From Candidatus Saccharimonadota bacterium (lineage in GTDB: Bacteria; Patescibacteriota; Saccharimonadia; Saccharimonadales; Saccharimonadaceae): DNA of 64,000 nt. Of this stretch, positions 1 to 60,719 are shown piece after piece. Position 1 is the stretch's first letter. Each line of letters opens with the position of its first letter. Both the position numbers and the translations under genes were made by a program. Location: assembly GCA_017404935.1 (NCBI GenBank), contig JAFRBI010000009.1:62001-126000 (forward strand), in the 5' to 3' direction. The notes beneath the pieces are model-generated. The model saw nothing but the letters and a program-made list of their open reading frames with translations, was not told the origin of the DNA and ran no database searches.

Positions 1-720
1 TATAAAGTATTTTGGAATCCGGCAGATCGCGCGGGATATAGTGGCACAGCAATACTGGTTTCTTCAGCGTTAGACTTGTCCGCTTGGAATGTCATACGCT
101 GGGACGCCGAGAGAACCGCCCTAACGGGCGAACCTCTCGGGTCCGTCAGGAATATACATCCCAAGCGTCCAAATCTGGATTTTGTTCATGCTTCAGAAAC
201 CAGCACCGCTGTGCCTGAAGGCAGAGTGCAGATTCTGGAATCCCAAGATTTTTATCTCGTAAATGTTTATACCCCAAATTCTAAACCAGATTTGTCGCGT
301 CTTGATTTGCGTTATAAAACTTGGGACCCAAAGTTTTTAAACCTTCTAAAAGATTTGGAAATGAAAAAACCAGTAATTACTTGTGGCGATTTTAATGCAG
401 CACATCAAAATATTGACCTTGCGCGCCCAGACGCAAACCACAAAAATGCTGGTTTTACCGACGAAGAGAGGGAAGGAATTTCTAACATCCTCGCTTCTGG
501 TTTTATTGATACTTTTAGATTTTTGCATCCAAATTCCGAGCGTTATACTTGGTGGAGTCATTGGGGTAATGCTCGAGCAAACAACGTCGGTTGGCGGATT
601 GATTATTTCTTTGTTTCGGCAAATCTTCGCAAAAAATTAGTGGGTGCAGAAATTTATGAAAGCGTGTTTGGTTCGGACCATTGTCCGATTTCGATTGAAT
701 TAAAATTAAAGGAGGAATAA
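1..720 (+). CDS. xthA: Exodeoxyribonuclease III (5' end outside window)
   Basis: The reading frame is open from base 1, so the N-terminus lies outside the window. The product is an exonuclease III / AP endonuclease of the EEP fold, acting in base excision repair in the cytoplasm. Family signatures in order are GYSGTAI, FYLVNVYTPNS, VITCGDFNAAHQNIDL (catalytic Asp/Asn), YTWWS, NVGWRIDYFFVS and the terminal GSDHCP with the catalytic Asp-His. Between GYSGTAI and EGRVQILE, where homologues have about 20 residues, there are about 50. The excess coincides with a palindromic DNA insert at 55-203 that keeps the frame open. The stop codon overlaps the start of the next gene by one base. Family assignment is secure; whether the inserted protein is fully active is unknown. 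Confidence 0.95.
   Translation, partial: YKVFWNPADRAGYSGTAILVSSALDLSAWNVIRWDAERTALTGEPLGSVRNIHPKRPNLDFVHASETSTAVPEGRVQILESQDFYLVNVYTPNSKPDLSRLDLRYKTWDPKFLNLLKDLEMKKPVITCGDFNAAHQNIDLARPDANHKNAGFTDEEREGISNILASGFIDTFRFLHPNSERYTWWSHWGNARANNVGWRIDYFFVSANLRKKLVGAEIYESVFGSDHCPISIELKLKEE
55..203 (+). repeat. Hairpin element, copy 1, inside xthA
   Basis: Nested inverted repeat. The outermost arms CTGGTTTC/GAAACCAG and then CTTGTCCGCTTGGAATGT / ACATCCCAAGCGTCCAAAT pair almost completely. Inside them come the conserved strand GTCATACGCTGG, a GC-rich hairpin (CCGAGAG/CTCTCGG with inner GCCC TAAC GGGC), and the conserved strand CAGGAATATAC. The same plan and the same unpaired sequences recur at 30409-30573 and 42939-43107 with different arm sequences. 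The frame through it is open, adding about 30-37 codons to xthA. Confidence 0.85.
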
Positions 721-8587: not shown

Positions 8588-8619
8588 TTAGGGCACTATC
8601 TATTGAATGTTATTTGTGA

Positions 8620-8777
8620 TATAATTAACTTGTCCTAAACAAAAGGGGAAACCCTAAAATGCAAATAGATGCTCAGCCGTAAAACATGGTGATTTCGTCC
8701 AATATACAGGACATCACGGGCAACGGACGAAAGTCTATTTGCAAAAAAGGTTTAGGACAACCATCGTGGTGTCCTGT
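8620..8777 (+). promoter_or_regulatory. Structured 5' leader RNA (copy C) of PASTA-like protein gene
   Basis: TATAAT (8620-8625) stands about 5 nt before P1 TTGTCCTAAAC (8630-8640), which pairs with GTTTAGGACAA (8750-8760). Inside are the side hairpin GGGG-AA-ACCC, P2 GCAAATAGA/TCTATTTGC and P3 TTTCGTCC/GGACGAAA. The P3 loop ACAGGACATCACG (8706-8718) pairs with CGTGGTGTCCTGT (8765-8777), 3' of P1, followed by TTTTT. This is the same topology as 5677-5843 and 24589-24751. The 346-bp gap 8483-8828 contains this element and no gene. Confidence 0.75.
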
Positions 8778-8828
8778 TTTTATGCAGGCGCTAATAAACC
8801 ATATCACTAAATAAAGGAGGTATTCCAT

Positions 8829-16851: not shown

Positions 16852-18249
16852 ATGAAACGCCTACCTATTATCGCTTTAATTGGCCAAACAAATGCTGGCA
16901 AGTCCAGCATTCTTAATAGGTTTGCGCATAAAAATATCGCAATCGTGGCCCGCGAAGAAGGCACCACGCGTGACAATGTGATGGCCACTATTGATGACTC
17001 GTTTATTTTGGTGGATACCGCTGGTTTAAAAGACCCCACCGATGATTTTGAGGCCTCAATTCAAGACCAAATCGCTGATGCGATAGATTCTGCAGATGCG
17101 ATTTTGGTAGTGTTAGATTCCTCAAAATATTTTGATCACAAAGATGCCAAGATAGCAAAAGATGCTCTAAGGTCCAAAAAACCAGTATATTTGGTGCTAA
17201 ATAAGTGCGATCTTGCTGAGTCTCTACCAATTACTGAATTTCGCGCACTAGGGGTTGACCCAAAAAATACTTTCTATATTTCGGCTACAACCGGTAATGG
17301 TATTAGAGAGTTAGAAGCGGCCATTCTGGGACTCGGGTCGCTCGCTCCCGTCGTTACGGGGCTCGCGCCCTCTTCCTCGGCCGTTGCCTCCGGACGGTCC
17401 CAGAACGGCGCTTCTAACTCTCTTAAACTGGCCTTGATTGGGCGGCCGAATGTAGGGAAGTCGTCGCTGTTTAATGCTCTGGGCAAAAAGCAGCAAGCGA
17501 TTGTTTCGAGTCGTCAGGGAACTACCAGAGATATAAATCGTGTAGCGGTTCGCTATAAGGGCAGGGAAATTGAGATTTTGGACACTGCAGGGCTGCGCCG
17601 TCCAGGGAAGAGAGAAGTAGGAATTGAAAAATTCTCGGCTATCAGAACTCTCGCAGCGATTGAAGAAGCAGATGTTTGCTGCCTTCTCGTTGATTCTACC
17701 GAACCACACGTTAAGTTAGACCAAACTTTGGCCGGACAAATCGTAGAATCTGGCAAGGGAATTATGATGGTGGTAACCAAGTCTGACCTCTTAGAAAACG
17801 CCGAGCCAACCAATTATTTTGGCGAGGAAAACATCAAAAATCGCACTGCGGCAGACTTTTTGCTAGATGCCTTAGAGCGCGATTTTGATTTTTTGCCATA
17901 TGCTCCAGTGATTTTGACTTCTTCGGAGACGGGTGCTAACGTGACCCAGATTTTTGAGTTGGCGCTAGAGATAGATAAGGCGCGCCATACCGAGATTCCT
18001 ACCTCTGAACTCAATAAAATCTTGGCTGAAGCAGTGACCGATCATATTCCGGCAGGGCTTAAAAATACCCGTCCAAAGCCAAAATATCTGGTACAAACAG
18101 ACACCTGCCCACCTTGGTTTGTGCTTCACGGGCATTCTTTGGGCTTGCTCCACTGGTCTTGGAAGCGCTTTTTGGAACGTAAAATCAGGGAAAAATATCC
18201 ACTAATTGGCACACCAATCAAATTTTCGTATAGGAGCGACGATAAATGA
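16852..18249 (+). CDS. der: Ribosome biogenesis GTPase Der (EngA)
   Basis: 465 residues with two tandem GTPase domains and a C-terminal KH-like domain, required for 50S subunit maturation. Domain 1: GQTNAGKS, DTAGL, NKCD. Domain 2: GRPNVGKS (about 195), DTAGLRRPGK, TKSD. The linker between them (about 152-190) is encoded by a GC-rich palindrome at 17305-17423, replacing the usual short acidic linker. TATAAT is 6 nt before the ATG (leaderless). The last codons overlap pth by 4 bp (ATGA), so the two are translationally coupled. Core function is not in doubt. Confidence 0.97.
   Translation: MKRLPIIALIGQTNAGKSSILNRFAHKNIAIVAREEGTTRDNVMATIDDSFILVDTAGLKDPTDDFEASIQDQIADAIDSADAILVVLDSSKYFDHKDAKIAKDALRSKKPVYLVLNKCDLAESLPITEFRALGVDPKNTFYISATTGNGIRELEAAILGLGSLAPVVTGLAPSSSAVASGRSQNGASNSLKLALIGRPNVGKSSLFNALGKKQQAIVSSRQGTTRDINRVAVRYKGREIEILDTAGLRRPGKREVGIEKFSAIRTLAAIEEADVCCLLVDSTEPHVKLDQTLAGQIVESGKGIMMVVTKSDLLENAEPTNYFGEENIKNRTAADFLLDALERDFDFLPYAPVILTSSETGANVTQIFELALEIDKARHTEIPTSELNKILAEAVTDHIPAGLKNTRPKPKYLVQTDTCPPWFVLHGHSLGLLHWSWKRFLERKIREKYPLIGTPIKFSYRSDDK
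17305..17423 (+). repeat. GC-rich palindromic insert in the der linker
   Basis: Left arm AGAGAGTTAGAAGCGGCCAT.. (17305-17331) and right arm (17398-17423) are near-perfect inverted repeats over about 26 bp. The interior contains CCCGT-CGTT-ACGGG and is far richer in GC than the gene. The frame is open, encoding a Gly/Ala/Ser/Pro-rich spacer. The sequence does not match the xthA/priA element family, so it is a second kind of in-gene palindrome. Confidence 0.75.
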
Positions 18250-19766: not shown

Positions 19767-20074
19767 TAGTTAGGGACAAAAAGCCCCTAAACCGCACCTA
19801 AATAAGTTATAATTTCAGCTATACTTATTTAAGTATACCAGAAATTGCGTGCTTTTGAAACCCTTTCTGGCTTAGAATTTCTTAAAGGTTTTAAGTTATA
19901 AGTATTACCTCCACTTTGAAAGGAAAATTTCGAAGGCATAGCAATCCCTCTAACCGGCGGGCCCCAATTGTGTGAGGTGGGTCGCGCTTCCGGGGTTCAC
20001 CCGGTATAGTGATGAAGCGTTAGAGGGCCAAAATAGCCTCAGGTAGTGCCCACCCATACCTGAGGCTATTTTGG
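19767..20074 (+). ncRNA. Structured RNA gene of unknown class, about 300 nt
   Basis: It starts about 7 nt after a perfect promoter and ends at a perfect 18-bp terminator hairpin (20028-20074) with TTT. In order: TTAGGG/CCCTAA hairpin; TAAATAAGT/ACTTATTTA; CCAGAAA/TTTCTGG; CTTAAA/TTTAAG. Then comes a GC-rich 3' domain closed by CCCTCTAAC/GTTAGAGGG, holding GCTTC/GAAGC with CCGGG-GTTCA-CCCGG and a second arm GGCCC/GGGTC. AATTTC in one loop can pair with GAAATT downstream. There is no open frame of note. I do not see SRP, tmRNA, 6S or RNase P signatures. Confidence 0.7.
20028..20074 (+). terminator. Terminator hairpin of RNA gene (repeat copy 1)
   Basis: CCAAAATAGCCTCAGGTA ... TACCTGAGGCTATTTTGG, an 18-bp perfect stem with loop GTGCCCACCCA. 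Two further copies of this sequence at 20106-20151 and 20834-20874 bracket the next two genes. Confidence 0.85.
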
Positions 20075-20105
20075 TTTCAGAGAGGTGGTTTGGTTGTATC
20101 GAGGG

Positions 20106-20151
20106 CCAAAATAGCCTCAGGTAGTGCCCACCCTAGCTTAGGCTATTTTGG
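20106..20151. repeat. Terminator-like repeat, copy 2
   Basis: Same left half as copy 1 (including the preceding GAGGG) and right half CTAGCTTAGGCTATTTTGG, so the stem has mismatches. It overlaps the stop codon region of the 113-aa gene. Confidence 0.75.
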
Positions 20152-20484
20152 TTGTAGCATCATGGTGAAGCCATCATAATATCTTTGCATTTTGGTAGGA
20201 TCTGTGTGCCAGCTGTTGCCACCAAAGAAATAGTCGCAAAATTCTTCGCGGGCTTTTAAAATTTCTGTGAGACGAGCGTGATTTTTGACATTTGCTTCTA
20301 TCGTAAAATCAAAAAGCTCTAGGGCTCGGTCTATAGCGACATCAGCCCGTTTTCGATTGCCTTTTTGGGACCATTTAAGAGAGCGGGAGACTTCGCTGCC
20401 AATATTACCCATTTGATAGGCGATAGAATAATTTGGCCAATTTTGGCGAAGTTCGTCGCTGTGAATGTATTTTATTTGAGCCAT
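20143..20484 (-). CDS. Hypothetical protein, helical, paired with DUF5674-like gene
   Basis: 113 residues, mostly helical, with RSLKWSQKGNRKRADVAIDRALELFDFTI and a conserved-looking C-terminal REEFCDYFFGG. I do not recognise a named family. It overlaps the upstream DUF5674-like gene by 13 bp, so the two are translationally coupled. Both lie inside direct repeats derived from the terminator of the neighbouring RNA gene, which suggests a movable cassette. A toxin-antitoxin role would fit the size and pairing but nothing in the sequence proves it. Confidence 0.65.
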   Translation of the reverse strand: MAQIKYIHSDELRQNWPNYSIAYQMGNIGSEVSRSLKWSQKGNRKRADVAIDRALELFDFTIEANVKNHARLTEILKAREEFCDYFFGGNSWHTDPTKMQRYYDGFTMMLQPK

Positions 20485-20833: not shown

Positions 20834-20874
20834 ATAGCCTCAGGTAGTGCCCACCCTAGCTTAGGCTATTTTGG
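20834..20874. repeat. Terminator-like repeat, copy 3
   Basis: ATAGCCTCAGGTAGTGCCCACCCTAGC.. is identical to copy 2 over about 41 bp but lacks its leftmost CCAAA. Together copies 2 and 3 flank the gene pair as direct repeats. Confidence 0.75.
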
Positions 20875-20911
20875 TTTTTGATTTTTTAATTAGTATGTTA
20901 TTATATTATAT

Positions 20912-30408: not shown

Positions 30409-30573
30409 GGCTTTAAACCAGTCATTTGCTTATCTGGACTTGATTTTTTAAGCACGTCATACACTGGGCCGCGGGCAGAACCGCCCTTCGGGCGAACCTG
30501 TCCGGGCCGTCAGGAATATACGTGTTAAAAATTCAAATCAATTTTATGATTCGCAACTAACTGGTTTAAAGCC
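30409..30573 (+). repeat. Hairpin element, copy 2, intergenic
   Basis: Outer arms GGCTTTAAACCAG (30409-30421) / CTGGTTTAAAGCC (30561-30573), then GACTTGATTTTTTAAGCACG / CGTGTTAAAAATTCAAATC, then the conserved GTCATACACTGG and CAGGAATATAC around the hairpin GGGCAG/CTGTCC with inner CGCCC-TTC-GGGCG. Same architecture as the xthA and priA copies, here in the 673-bp gap 30173-30845, which contains no gene. The rest of that gap is AT-rich with repeated CCCTATTT and CCCCTGTT motifs. Confidence 0.85.
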
Positions 30574-37031: not shown

Positions 37032-37210
37032 CCAATGGCGCTTAAGTTAGCAGAGCTATAAGTGACTAGCTTAAGGCCATTGGAAAGGTCATACACTACA
37101 CTCTACACCAAGTGTGAACTCTATTTTGGTGAGCCCGAAGGCCCATGTATTAAGGTGCTTTTAGATTGTGGGGTCGTTTTGATGGGCGACCCCACCAGGT
37201 CATACAATAA
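37032..37210. other. Pair of strong hairpins between rsmH and ftsL
   Basis: Hairpin 1, 37032-37083: CCAATGGCGCTTAAGTTAG pairs with CTAGCTTAAGGCCATTGG. Hairpin 2, 37168-37195: GTGGGGTCG/CGACCCCAC. Both are followed (+ strand) by AGGTCATACA, at 37086 and 37197. GTCATACACT also occurs in the xthA/priA hairpin elements. Together with a 22-codon frame (37217-37285) they fill the 358-bp gap 36965-37322; there is no larger gene. Confidence 0.6.
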
Positions 37211-37216
37211 AGTTAA

Positions 37217-37285
37217 TTATTTCTTGAAATTAACTTTGATGGTTTGGGTGCGAGAGCGGCTCGCGACTACGATTTGCTTAGGCAT
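37217..37285 (-). CDS. Small ORF, 22 aa, basic peptide between rsmH and ftsL
   Basis: AAAGGAGG stands 4 nt before an ATG that opens a 22-codon frame reading MPKQIVVASRSRTQ...KVNFKK, strongly basic. The stop codon is embedded in an inverted repeat AAAGTTAATT/AATTAACTTT, and two strong hairpins follow before ftsL. That combination looks like a leader peptide or a real mini-protein. No homologue is known to me. Confidence 0.45.
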   Translation of the reverse strand: MPKQIVVASRSRTQTIKVNFKK

Positions 37286-37322
37286 ATTGCCTCCTTTTTT
37301 TGTTTTTATTGTTTTTATTTTA

Positions 37323-42590: not shown

Positions 42591-44693
42591 ATGCATGTGG
42601 AGGTAGTCGTCGGAAAGGCGGTGGGCAAGGGGGCAAGTATTTTGACCTATGCTTCTTCTCTACCGGTTGAGGTGGGCTCTATCGTGGAAGTGCCTTTGAT
42701 GCGAGGGCGTGCTCCGGGCGTAGTATACAAAAAAGTTGCTCAACCGAAATTTAAGTGCCGGGAAATTACACGAGTTTTGTATTCAAAACCACTGCCATCA
42801 CATCTTCTTGAAATTGCGATATGGATTTCGGAGTATTACGCTGCGCCACTCTCGAGCGTGATGAGTATGGTGCTACCTACCGGTGTCTTGAAAAAGCGGC
42901 GTTCTAGGGGTAAAACCGAACAGACCGAACATGAACAAGTGGCTGAACCTGTTTTTCTCTCAGCTGGACTTGAATTTTTAAGCACGTCATACACTGGTCC
43001 GCCGAGAGAACCGTCCCTTCGGGACGGACCTCTCGGGGACGGCAGGAATATACGTGTTAAAAATTCAAATCAATCTTTATGCTTCGAGAAAAACAGGTTT
43101 CAGCCACCGACCTATTCCATCCCTCTCAACCCTGCGCAAAAAATGGCGCTTAAAGGGCTTCAGACACCCCTAGAAGGCACGAAAGTGCTGTTTGGCGTTA
43201 CCGGTAGTGGTAAAACCAACATCTACCTTAAAATGGCTCTAGATGCCCTTTCCGGGCAAAAGTCAGTTGTGCTTTTGGTGCCAGAAATCGCTTTAACCGG
43301 GCAGCTTGTTAAGGTGTTTCAAGATACTTTTGGCGATATTGTAACAGTAATTCACTCTAAACAAACAGAGGTGGAAAGGCAACGAATTTTTGATTCCCTC
43401 CTCTTAAAAGACGCGCCTAAAATCGTAATCGGGCCCCGTTCTGCGCTGTTTGCCCCCCTTGATGATTTGGGGCTAATTATCATCGATGAGGAACACGAAT
43501 CTACTTACTACCAAGAAAATACCCCTAAATACTCTGCGATAAGGGCAGCTTCCAAGATGGCCTCTATCTTAAAGTGCCCTTGTATTCTCGGTTCGGCCAC
43601 GCCGACTTTGGAAGATTTTTATCTGGCGCGTCAAAAGAACTCTCTTATAACTTTATCTGAAAAGGCCAAAAAAACTGCCATAAAACCAGAGGTCAAAATT
43701 ATTGATTTTAAAAATCGTGATAATTTTACAAAGAATCGGTATTTTTCTAACGACCTCTTAAAATCTATCACTGACAATCTTAAAAATGGGCGCCAAACGC
43801 TGATTTTTCATAACCGGCGAGGGTCTTCTCCTCTAACGATTTGCGAAAATTGTGGCGAGGAATTGCTCTGTCCTACCTGTTATTTGCCACTGACTTTGCA
43901 TGTAGATACCTATGAAATGCGTTGCCATACTTGTGGCTATAAGAGTAAGGTGCCTTCATCTTGCCCTCATTGTGGGGCTGCTGGGCTGATCCACAAGGGC
44001 TTTGGGACGAAGCTTTTAGAGAGTGAACTGGAACGGCTGTTTCCAAAGACTAGAATTAAACGTTTTGACGGAGATACTAAAAAAGGCGAGGGCTTAGAAG
44101 AGATTTATCAAGAGGTAAAAGACGGCGAGGTAGATATTTTGGTGGGAACACAGACTCTCGCTAAGGGGTTAGATTTGCCACTTCTGGCCACCGTAGGGGT
44201 GGTGCAAGCTGATGCTGGCTTGTCTCTCCCTGATTTTAGTGCCGAAGAACGAGTATTTCAGCTAATTACTCAGGTGATGGGGCGCGTGGGACGTGGGCAT
44301 CTGGAGCAAGCTGAGGTCTTTATCCAGACTTTTCGGCCAGAGCACCCGGTGATCAATTTTGCAATTTCGGAAGATTATCTGGGGTTTTCGGAATACCTGT
44401 TAAAACAGAGGCGACGTGGAGGGTTCCCGCCATTTAAATTTGTGGCAAAGGCCTCGGCGACGGCCAAAACAGAGGCCACGGCGCTAAAAAAGATTCGGGC
44501 GCTTTATAATCAGCTCTCTTCTGATTCGCGGTTTTTGGTTTCGCCACCTCAGCCGGCGTTCCATGAGCGAACGGCGCGTGGTTTTACCTGGGAAATCATA
44601 ATAAGATCTTCCTCTAGAAAAGCCTTAGTAGATGTGCTTTCTGGGTTAGATGCTAGTTTTCATTCTTCCCTGGACTTACCTTCCCTTTTATGA
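42591..44693 (+). CDS. priA: Primosomal helicase PriA
   Basis: 700 residues. The N-terminal 3'-DNA-binding domain (1-110) is followed by the helicase with Walker A GVTGSGKT (about 205), DEEH box and motifs IVIGPRSALFAP and LGSATP. The zinc module has eight cysteines (CENCGEELLCPTC ... CHTCG ... CPHCG), then VGTQTLAKGLD and QVMGRVGRG. It restarts stalled forks. Residues about 117-172, between the DNA-binding and helicase domains, are encoded by a hairpin element (42939-43107) and are not part of normal PriA. TATAAT is 6 nt before the ATG (leaderless). Confidence 0.96.
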   Translation: MHVEVVVGKAVGKGASILTYASSLPVEVGSIVEVPLMRGRAPGVVYKKVAQPKFKCREITRVLYSKPLPSHLLEIAIWISEYYAAPLSSVMSMVLPTGVLKKRRSRGKTEQTEHEQVAEPVFLSAGLEFLSTSYTGPPREPSLRDGPLGDGRNIRVKNSNQSLCFEKNRFQPPTYSIPLNPAQKMALKGLQTPLEGTKVLFGVTGSGKTNIYLKMALDALSGQKSVVLLVPEIALTGQLVKVFQDTFGDIVTVIHSKQTEVERQRIFDSLLLKDAPKIVIGPRSALFAPLDDLGLIIIDEEHESTYYQENTPKYSAIRAASKMASILKCPCILGSATPTLEDFYLARQKNSLITLSEKAKKTAIKPEVKIIDFKNRDNFTKNRYFSNDLLKSITDNLKNGRQTLIFHNRRGSSPLTICENCGEELLCPTCYLPLTLHVDTYEMRCHTCGYKSKVPSSCPHCGAAGLIHKGFGTKLLESELERLFPKTRIKRFDGDTKKGEGLEEIYQEVKDGEVDILVGTQTLAKGLDLPLLATVGVVQADAGLSLPDFSAEERVFQLITQVMGRVGRGHLEQAEVFIQTFRPEHPVINFAISEDYLGFSEYLLKQRRRGGFPPFKFVAKASATAKTEATALKKIRALYNQLSSDSRFLVSPPQPAFHERTARGFTWEIIIRSSSRKALVDVLSGLDASFHSSLDLPSLL
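42939..43107 (+). repeat. Hairpin element, copy 3, inside priA
   Basis: Outer arms GTGGCTGAACCTGTTTTTCTC (42939-42959) / its complement at 43086-43107, then GACTTGAATTTTTAAGCACG / CGTGTTAAAAATTCAAATC. Then come the conserved GTCATACACTGG and CAGGAATATAC around CCGAGAG/CTCTCGG with inner CCGTCC-CTTCG-GGACGG. Translated in a different frame over its left half than the xthA copy, so the protein sequence is not what is conserved. Confidence 0.88.
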
Positions 44694-57927: not shown

Positions 57928-58887
57928 ATGTTACTTTCTGTCATAATTCCAGTTTATAACGCAGAAAAATACCTAGACCGGTGCCTTCAGTCTGTTTTTA
58001 AGGCGGTGGCACTTTCTAAAGTGTCGGCAGAAGTAATTTTGGTAGATAATGGTTCGACCGATGATTCCATAAAAATCGCTAAGGAATTTGCGGCAAAATC
58101 TCCGCTTCGAATTAAGATTTTACAGTGCCCGACAAGGGGCGCAGCAGCAGTGAGAAATTTTGGCGTCCCCCACGCTCTTGGCGAATATATTTGGTTTGTA
58201 GATGCTGATGACACCATAGCCGAAAACAGCATCAAACTCTTGATAGAAAAGGCTCGTAAATCCAAGGCAGACATTACGATGATGGGTGCAAAACGCGTGT
58301 ATGAAGATGGACATTCTGACTATCTTTCGGCAATTGACCCTAAATCTTCTGATTATAAAAGTCGGTTCGTGAGGTATGGTGCTGGCCCGTGGCAATTTGT
58401 CTTTCTAAAATCTTGGTGGGTTTCTAATGGATTTTTATTTAAGGAAGGCATTATCCACGAAGATATGGAACTAATTTCTTCCCTAATTTTATATACTGAC
58501 AAATTTGCTTCCGTAGATAAACCACTTTATACTTACTACCAAAATGAAGATTCGGTGCTGCATAAATCTCGGTGGGACCCACATTATCTTGATATTTTCC
58601 CGGCGCTAACCGGACTTTATAATCGATTTTTAAGAATGGGGGCGGCAAAAGAATACCACGATGAGCTGGAATGGTTCTTTATTTGGAATCTTTTGATTGA
58701 CTCGGCCTCTGATTTTTCTAAGTTCCCGGAAGGAAAAGAAGGCTTTTTGTTCTCGCGCGAGATGCTGAAAAAGTATTTCCCGAAGTGGCGCAAAAATCAC
58801 TTTTTGAAGCAAAAACCTTTAAAACTTAGATTGCGAGTAAGACTAAATTATAGAAAATCACAATATTTCGGAAGTTTCGCATCGTGA
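57928..58887 (+). CDS. GT2-family glycosyltransferase
   Basis: 319 residues. LLSVIIPVYNAEKYLDRCLQSV, VDNGSTDDS and WFVDADDTI (DxD metal motif) define the GT-A catalytic domain; GIIHEDMELISSL is the acceptor-side ED motif. It probably adds a sugar to a surface polysaccharide or lipid. TATAAT (57916-57921) is 6 nt before the ATG (leaderless). The last codons (KSQYFGS) lie inside a palindrome that also forms the end of the convergent ligase gene. Confidence 0.88.
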   Translation: MLLSVIIPVYNAEKYLDRCLQSVFKAVALSKVSAEVILVDNGSTDDSIKIAKEFAAKSPLRIKILQCPTRGAAAVRNFGVPHALGEYIWFVDADDTIAENSIKLLIEKARKSKADITMMGAKRVYEDGHSDYLSAIDPKSSDYKSRFVRYGAGPWQFVFLKSWWVSNGFLFKEGIIHEDMELISSLILYTDKFASVDKPLYTYYQNEDSVLHKSRWDPHYLDIFPALTGLYNRFLRMGAAKEYHDELEWFFIWNLLIDSASDFSKFPEGKEGFLFSREMLKKYFPKWRKNHFLKQKPLKLRLRVRLNYRKSQYFGSFAS

Positions 58888-58976
58888 TAATCTTCGATTA
58901 TATCACGATGCTCCACCTCTGCGCGCACAAAATCAAAGATTTTGTGCTTGATGTTCCTCAATATTGTGATTTTCTA
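58851..58976. repeat. Three-stem palindromic element between convergent genes
   Basis: Terminal inverted repeats TAGAAAATCACAATATT (58851-58867) and its exact complement (58960-58976) enclose two hairpins: GCATCGTGAT../..ATCACGATGC (58879-58911) and GCACAAAATC-AAA-GATTTTGTGC (58925-58947). As RNA or DNA it makes a three-way junction. The repeats supply the last codons of GT2 and the stop codon of the ligase gene. There is no T-run typical of a simple terminator. Confidence 0.75.
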
Positions 58977-60719
58977 TTTCTGCTTCTCTTCAGCTTCTAA
59001 TTTTTTGAAGGCGACTTTGCCAACGAGAGTTTTTGGAAGTTCATCTCTAAATTCGTAAGCAGTTGGCATAGCGTAAACTGGAATGTTCCTCGAGAGTAAT
59101 TCTCTGATTTCTTTTTCGATACGTTTGCCTGGCTTGTAACCTTCTTTTAGAACGATAAAGGCTTTTGGCACCTGACCTTTGTGTGGGTGGTCGATACCGA
59201 TGACGATAGAAGTTTCAACAGCTTCGTGCGAGTTGATAATAGATTCGAGGTGGGTTGGGTAGATATTGTAGCCTGACGAGATAATAATACGTTTGAGGCG
59301 CTGACCGAAGTAAATCAAACCATCATCACCAAGATGACCGATATCGCCGGTGTGAAGCCAGACTTTGCCGTCATCGTGAACTTTGATTACCTTTTTGGTT
59401 TCTTCTTCGTCACCAAGATAGCCCATCATTACAAGTGGACCAGAAATACAAATTTCGCCATCTTCCCCATTTTTGATTTCTTTTTTGGTGCCTGGTTTGA
59501 CGATTTTAAAGTCCATATTCGGCATCGGAGCACCGATGATGCCGTCTTTAAAGGCGTTTTCTGGGGAGAGACAAACTGCGCCAGAACCTTCGGTAAGACC
59601 ATAACCGACGCGGATTTTGGCTTTGGAACCGTGAGCAGCCAAGAATTCGTTAACTTTATCTCTGAGGGTGCTATTTAAAGTATCGCCACCACAGATTACA
59701 GCAGTAACAGACTCGAGGTCGTTTGGACCGAGCTTGGTATTGATAAGGGCTTCAAAGAGTGTTGGCACGCCTACGATGAAGCTAGGGGTGTTTTTGCGTA
59801 AAATATCGGCAAATAGCTTGTGCGAAAAGGCTGGAATAAGGTTACATTCCATACCTTTACAGAGAGGGGTGTGAATACAAACACCTAGCCCAAAGCAGTG
59901 AAATAGTGGCAAAATAGACAAAACATTAGCCCCTGGGACGATTTGGCGTATCATAGTGGCGTCGCAGATAGATTCTGCGTTGATATTAAGGTTTGAAAGC
60001 ATAACCGCCTTAGGAGCGCCCGTAGTGCCTCCAGAGTACATGATAATGGCAGGATCGGCACCACCACGGTCTTCGTGGTAGCTTCCCTGATAGAAATAGC
60101 TATTGGCGATAAAATCTTCCCAGAGAACTACCCGGCCATCGTTCATCGGTAGGCGAACTTTTTTGACGTGCAGTAATCTGTAAAGTTTTTGCTTTAAGAA
60201 ACCTAGACCATCTGATGGGCGCACGACAATGATGCGTTCTAAGCCAGCAGTATCTCTTAACCTGTAAATCTTATCAAATACAGCGTCGATAACCATCACG
60301 TATTTGGACTCTGCCACCTTGATATAATACTCTAATTCCTTCTCTGATGATAAGGGGTGGACCATATTACAGACAGCGCCAACCATATTTACAGCGTAAA
60401 CCATAGTAATACCCTCTGGGGTGTTTGGCATACAAATAGTAACCTTATCACCCTCCTTGACACCGTAGTTTTTAAGGGCGCGAGCGGCTTTTTCGATCTT
60501 TCTGACGAAGTTTTTATAGGTGACTTTGTGGCCATAATAAGAATATGCCACGTTGTCTGGGTATTTTTCGGCAGTCTGAATAATCATATCTACAATGGAA
60601 CAATCTGGGAATTCCAATTTTTCTGGAATGCCATCTTCCTTGTAGTATCTTAGCCAAGGTTTCCCACTAGTTTTTACAGTTTTTGCAGTTTTTTTCGCAG
60701 TTGATACTTTTTTCTTCAC
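58974..60719 (-). CDS. AMP-dependent synthetase / acyl-CoA ligase
   Basis: 581 residues starting at GTG with AAGGAGA upstream. The adenylate-forming signatures are IIMYSGGTTGAPKAVMLSN (P-loop), GYGLTEGSG and WLHTGDIGHLGDDG, with the lysine near the end in GKVAFKK. It likely activates a fatty acid, giving an acyl-adenylate and then acyl-CoA. The N-terminal 20 residues are Lys/Thr-rich. CPR bacteria usually lack fatty acid synthesis, so it may serve use of host lipids; this is inference. Confidence 0.9.
   Translation of the reverse strand: MKKKVSTAKKTAKTVKTSGKPWLRYYKEDGIPEKLEFPDCSIVDMIIQTAEKYPDNVAYSYYGHKVTYKNFVRKIEKAARALKNYGVKEGDKVTICMPNTPEGITMVYAVNMVGAVCNMVHPLSSEKELEYYIKVAESKYVMVIDAVFDKIYRLRDTAGLERIIVVRPSDGLGFLKQKLYRLLHVKKVRLPMNDGRVVLWEDFIANSYFYQGSYHEDRGGADPAIIMYSGGTTGAPKAVMLSNLNINAESICDATMIRQIVPGANVLSILPLFHCFGLGVCIHTPLCKGMECNLIPAFSHKLFADILRKNTPSFIVGVPTLFEALINTKLGPNDLESVTAVICGGDTLNSTLRDKVNEFLAAHGSKAKIRVGYGLTEGSGAVCLSPENAFKDGIIGAPMPNMDFKIVKPGTKKEIKNGEDGEICISGPLVMMGYLGDEEETKKVIKVHDDGKVWLHTGDIGHLGDDGLIYFGQRLKRIIISSGYNIYPTHLESIINSHEAVETSIVIGIDHPHKGQVPKAFIVLKEGYKPGKRIEKEIRELLSRNIPVYAMPTAYEFRDELPKTLVGKVAFKKLEAEEKQK

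Follow-up and report, generated by a model that had tools for sequence, protein, structure and literature searches.

A hairpin inserted in frame into priA, a likely copy of a mobile element of one Saccharibacteria genus

Introduction

The gene for the primosomal helicase PriA of a tiny bacterium of the gut, a Candidatus Saccharimonadota bacterium (assembly GCA_017404935.1), contains within its open reading frame a hairpin of 169 bases, which raises the question of what this sequence is, how it came to lie there and whether the protein carries it. To our knowledge, most descriptions of in-frame coding palindromes come from Rickettsia, and a literature search, with most subscription journals outside its coverage, returned no report on such elements in Saccharibacteria or Patescibacteria. 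Here we describe the locus and its relatives in the window, that is, the whole stretch of 64,000 nucleotides of contig JAFRBI010000009.1 that was analysed, and in other genomes (Table 1).

Table 1. Features of the window discussed in the text (window coordinates)
Feature	Position	Strand	Remarks
priA (primosomal helicase) ORF, 700 aa	42591..44693	+	open through the hairpin element
Family-1 hairpin element in priA	42939..43107	+	full outer stem; g42939 pairs with c43107
Covariance-model core of the priA copy	42964..43073	+	E 5.3e-30
Sister copy core in xthA-like exonuclease gene	69..177	+	frame differs from priA; outer arms enter host codons for GYSGTA
Intergenic sister copy core	30434..30541	+	outer arms about 30409-30573
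Family-2 (three-way-junction) element in der/EngA	17323..17406	+	different family; linker between the two G (GTPase) domains

Results

The priA hairpin and its sister copies

Folded as single-stranded DNA, the priA element reached -53.7 kcal/mol compared with -17.9 +/- 3.0 kcal/mol in dinucleotide shuffles (z -11.8), a fold far beyond chance. Together with the uninterrupted ORF, this bears out the initial annotation, which had placed a hairpin element at this position. The same annotation had located the insert in a flexible linker between PriA domains, and here, too, it proved right: by Pfam, residues about 102-169 separate PriA_3primeBD (17-96) from the DEAD domain (181-339), and their pLDDT values stay below 50 in an alignment-based AlphaFold model that is otherwise good (mean pLDDT of the whole model 77), which predicts a disordered linker for the insert. 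The core contains two conserved loops, TCATAC facing GGAATATA and GAACC facing GAACC, and the priA copy departs from them on the right side of the second loop, where it has GGACC instead of GAACC. In PriA of the relatives L108-L135, the insertion site in the linker is bordered by tandem ACCGAACA motifs and by a short palindrome, ACCGAACAAATGTTCGGT, whose peptide reads KTEQMFG.

Three copies of this element, which we refer to as family 1, are present in the window (priA, xthA and an intergenic copy) and five in the genome; one of the two copies outside the window is located in tatD. The priA and xthA copies do share the motifs quoted earlier as common to both, but not to the exact letter, as xthA has GTCATACGCTGG and CAGGAATATACA. 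They are read in different frames, as proposed (priA in phase 2, xthA in phase 0). The accompanying claim that the encoded peptides are unrelated holds for the left halves, whereas the right halves are similar (priA ..GPLGDGRNIRVKNSN.., xthA ..EPLGSVRNIHPKRPN..), because the tips of the two copies differ in length by one base and the reading frames coincide again beyond it. The intergenic copy is without any open frame across the 190-nt element region.

Other repeats were seen in the window. The outer arms of the family-2 insert in der overlap host codons of the GIRELE region. A 43-nt repeat, ATAGCCTCAGGTAGTGCCCACCC..GGCTATTTTGG, occurs in three copies (20033-20075, 20111-20153 and 20834-20876), each of which can form a stem. 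Strong hairpins outside long ORFs are found at 8600-8780, 58841-59000 and 37160-37320, with fold energies far lower than the GC trend would suggest.

Level of conservation

Across 71 aligned cores, 98.7% of the helix cells were paired and 15 of the 25 pairs had changed on both sides. Covariation was strong, with 228 double-changed cells compared with 67 in shuffles. As a control, the partner was slid by one to three columns, upon which pairing dropped to 33-42%. Both mismatched internal-loop motifs were invariant or nearly so. The third codon position was no more variable than the others in copies of the commonest frame (left half 0.62/0.60/0.64 bits, right half 0.48/0.36/0.27 bits); there was no codon-position signal, and conservation of the peptide in excess of that of the structure was not found. 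Judged from these alignments, the family-1 element is conserved as nucleic acid and not as encoded peptide. The earlier statement that selection or replication acts on the nucleic acid is thus supported with regard to the level of conservation, by the pairing, by the use of five of the six frames and by the absence of a third-position excess. To tell RNA from DNA folding, G-U pairs and A-C mismatches in the arms were compared. An apparent A-C excess was due in part to fixed subfamily mismatches (GACTTG/CAAATC), and once the core had been removed the bias (102 vs 71) was too weak to favour either.

Distribution

A covariance model built from 71 family-1 copies matched in 74 of 294 related genomes, all of them in the host's own genus, and in none of the other 93 genera sampled (1 of 94 genera positive). 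An exact-pattern scan of the GTDB species genomes (about 85,000 species) returned 68 DNA stretches, all titled Candidatus Saccharibacteria, and many of these carry ruminant gut sites in the isolate name. Phage collections, plasmids and viral contigs gave no family-1 match. Family 2 has the fold of a three-way junction, in which 16 of 26 pairs have changed on both sides. It turned up in 143 of the 294 genomes, again in this genus only, with at least 15 matches in the host's own genome. The genus is heavily loaded with elements of both families.

Reading frames of in-gene copies

Among 80 distinct copies with enough flank, 69 sit in a long ORF that is open through both flanks; these represent 24 gene groups and 43 genomes. 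Every one of the 69 is open in the frame of its host gene, with five of the six frames and both orientations in use. The mean number of open frames per in-gene copy is 1.55 of 6, and in 42 copies the only open frame is the gene's own. Given so low a mean, the fact that the host frame is open in every in-gene copy is strong, if indirect, evidence for translation and against splicing or bypass, and the in-gene insert is very probably translated.

The remaining copies lie between genes, at the start of a gene or at contig ends that truncate them, and none of them breaks a gene; one candidate for a frameshifted gene (L099) was rejected, as the copy is intergenic. Seven of 11 intergenic copies lack an open frame through the 190-nt element region. 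We also noted that in-gene copies far outnumber intergenic ones (69 to about 11), which exceeds the expectation of random insertion followed by loss of frame-breaking copies and could mean that intergenic copies decay more quickly or that coding DNA is preferred. Two single ORFs contain two family-1 copies each, a TsaD-like ORF (L070; positions 6550 and 7216; 453 aa) and an MnmA-like ORF (L097; positions 3896 and 4550; 495 aa).

Movement, inheritance and shared insertion sites

For 10 of the 69 in-gene copies, the nearest relative was a copy in another gene of the same genome (permutation mean 1.1), and for 14 it was a copy in the same gene of another genome (permutation mean 3.3); neither value was reached in any of 2000 permutations. 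These excesses argue for both movement and inheritance of family 1. Some genomes have their own family-1 variant repeated in several genes. The genes for TatD, XthA and a PheT-like protein each have copies in several species, and xthA, UvrD-like and ValRS-like genes of different species carry the core at roughly the same position but in one orientation or the other. The PriA linker holds family 1 in three genomes (the host's own, G053 and G081) among 30 relatives examined, and elsewhere family 2, a third family, others or nothing. Similarly, the loop after GIHP in TatD holds hairpin-forming inserts of one family or another at the 30 loci examined. Extra small palindromes are nested in some family-1 copies (L031, L043, L119 and L104).

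Arms reaching into host codons

Within a copy the outer arms complement each other (score 20.5), which arms of different copies do not (8.0), and the arms extend into the host genes. In XthA the arm takes in codons of the conserved SGTA, in TatD codons just before and in the conserved VAIGE. Host codons match the opposite arm better within than across species (TatD 6.3 vs 4.5, XthA 7.4 vs 5.6), and none of 10,000 permutations reached the observed arm-to-host-codon match. Such arms are kept in XthA of G088 and G004, where the core is eroded or missing. No target-site duplication could be resolved, because the arms blend into the host sequence.

The complementarity statistics at these two genes suggest templated copying between the arms during replication, i.e. 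quasi-palindrome template switching. Alternatively, insertion itself might copy the target flank in inverted form, or the element might enter hairpins that already exist; copying between the arms is the simplest reading. We put forward, as a tentative extension of arm copying, that template switching might use host codons on the essential side as the template for the dispensable side. The palindrome would then grow outward into conserved codons, co-evolve with synonymous changes in them and yield in-frame loops that are the reverse complement of host coding sequence.

Candidate mobilising enzymes

A Y1 transposase (Y1_Tnp) was found in 5 of 118 genomes of the genus and not in the host's own genome, and the TnpB zinc-ribbon domain in 0 of 15 genomes; both enzymes were rejected as general mobilisers. 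An autonomous version with its halves far apart and carrying a gene was not present among the copies. Apparent left-only matches were rejected as split elements, being contig ends or variant right halves, and wider gaps turned out to be small extra inserts.

Discussion

The best explanation of the findings as a whole, and one that we consider likely, is that the insert in priA represents a non-autonomous mobile hairpin element whose copies spread among the Saccharibacteria genomes of one genus. The element would insert at many places, and insertions that break a gene would be lost. The survivors would be those whose open frame matches the gene and that lie in a surface loop able to accommodate them; there, translation of the hairpin would give a flexible stretch of about 55-60 residues. 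A trans-acting factor probably recognises the invariant loops when the strand is single and folded. Templated copying between the arms (quasi-palindrome correction) would keep these complementary and lengthen them into the adjoining host codons, with the result that arm sequences may diverge between sites while their pairing persists.

Several other explanations have to be weighed against this one. The element could be an RNA that removes itself, as a self-splicing intron or ribozyme, in which case the host protein would never carry the insert; the strong conserved fold, the invariant internal loops, the covariation and the interruption of conserved genes would all fit. Excision, however, needs no open frame, yet all in-gene copies have one although few frames are open on average. 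Antisense-oriented copies, too, lie inside genes, G-U pairs in the arms show no clear enrichment over A-C mismatches, and the element has no match to Rfam families at the curated gathering threshold, while a permissive search gave sub-threshold matches to unrelated families only. We regard self-removal as very unlikely, and the RNA excision or self-cleavage envisaged in the initial annotation is unsupported. Ribosomes might instead skip the hairpin by translational bypass, a proposal to which stable hairpins within genes at many loci lend themselves and for which a precedent exists in the mitochondrial palindromic elements of the yeast Magnusiomyces, which, according to PMC6649704 and the work cited there, are transcribed but untranslated. 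As bypass would not require a stop-free frame and every in-gene copy has one, we find this extremely improbable.

With regard to the origin and persistence of the copies, a resident reverse transcriptase could move the element, which would then spread as an RNA copy. Reverse transcriptase proteins (RVT_1) of about 380-440 aa were detected in 13 of 15 element-carrying genomes, one to four in each, and the host's own genome has four such genes of about 390-440 aa (at C3:51587, C7:14348, C8:23619 and C9:41773). Against this stands that RVT_1 was not found in the carriers G081 and G111, both incomplete MAG-type genomes, the former with 13 family-1 covariance matches with model R1 (per-genome counts of this search may include reverse-strand matches of one copy, as in the window). 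Moreover, we presume that the RVT_1 proteins of these genomes may belong to diversity-generating retroelements. Mobilisation by reverse transcriptase thus appears unlikely. A benefit of the hairpin or peptide to the host, for instance in mRNA stability or linker function, might also maintain the element and would make it something other than selfish. The persistence of copies at the same gene in several species and the heavy load of the genus are compatible with such a role, whereas the patchy presence even in priA, the occupation of one loop by different families and a peptide without codon-level conservation speak against it and render it quite unlikely.

If the mobile hairpin element is the right explanation, the presence of several families in a single genus of ultra-small Saccharibacteria with reduced genomes would mean that selfish hairpins can colonise housekeeping genes over and over, and in unrelated bacteria. 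Their loci would then serve as many natural experiments on the kinds of protein loop that tolerate arbitrary peptide inserts, and the complementarity between arms and host codons would make quasi-palindrome template switching, a mutational process long suspected, directly testable as a source of new protein sequence.

Comparison with known systems

REP/BIME elements are short palindromes with conserved imperfect stems, and REPs lie mostly outside genes and are linked to Y1 (RAYT) transposases. Family 1 resembles them as a short palindrome with a conserved imperfect stem and differs from the REP/RAYT system in the rarity of Y1_Tnp (0 in its own genome, 5/118 in the genus). Prokaryotic MITEs are, according to PMC10969869, inverted repeats that are short, non-autonomous and multicopy and that sometimes form in-frame fusions. 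Family 1 shares these traits, but nearly the whole element is paired, and neither a transposase (Y1 and TnpB were searched) nor a target-site duplication nor a parent insertion sequence came to light. In the mitochondrial coding palindromes of nematomorphs, inverted repeats lie inside genes, both arms are translated and apparently kept complementary, and template switching has been proposed for them (PMC6649704). Those palindromes are perfect repeats scattered in mitochondrial genes, whereas family 1 has a conserved core with invariant mismatched loops that recurs in many genes and many species.

The Rickettsia palindromic elements (RPEs) reportedly go back to studies by Ogata et al. of 2000 and 2002. 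In PMC10969869 and PMC6649704, they are described as hairpin-forming repeats of about 150 bp, of several families, that are inserted in frame in unrelated metabolic genes, are predicted to be translated and are tolerated by the proteins; the latter source adds that they lose repeat identity over time. Family 1 likewise is a short palindromic repeat with several copies per genome, inserted in frame in unrelated genes (69 in-gene copies, 24 gene groups). In contrast to RPEs, it resides in Saccharibacteria rather than Alphaproteobacteria, uses five frames and both orientations with no peptide-level constraint seen, and has arms complementary to host codons; the Saccharibacteria inserts also comprise several families, one a three-way junction, in the same protein loop. 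By likeness of kind, as judged from the descriptions of RPEs, family 1 works like these elements in an unrelated phylum.
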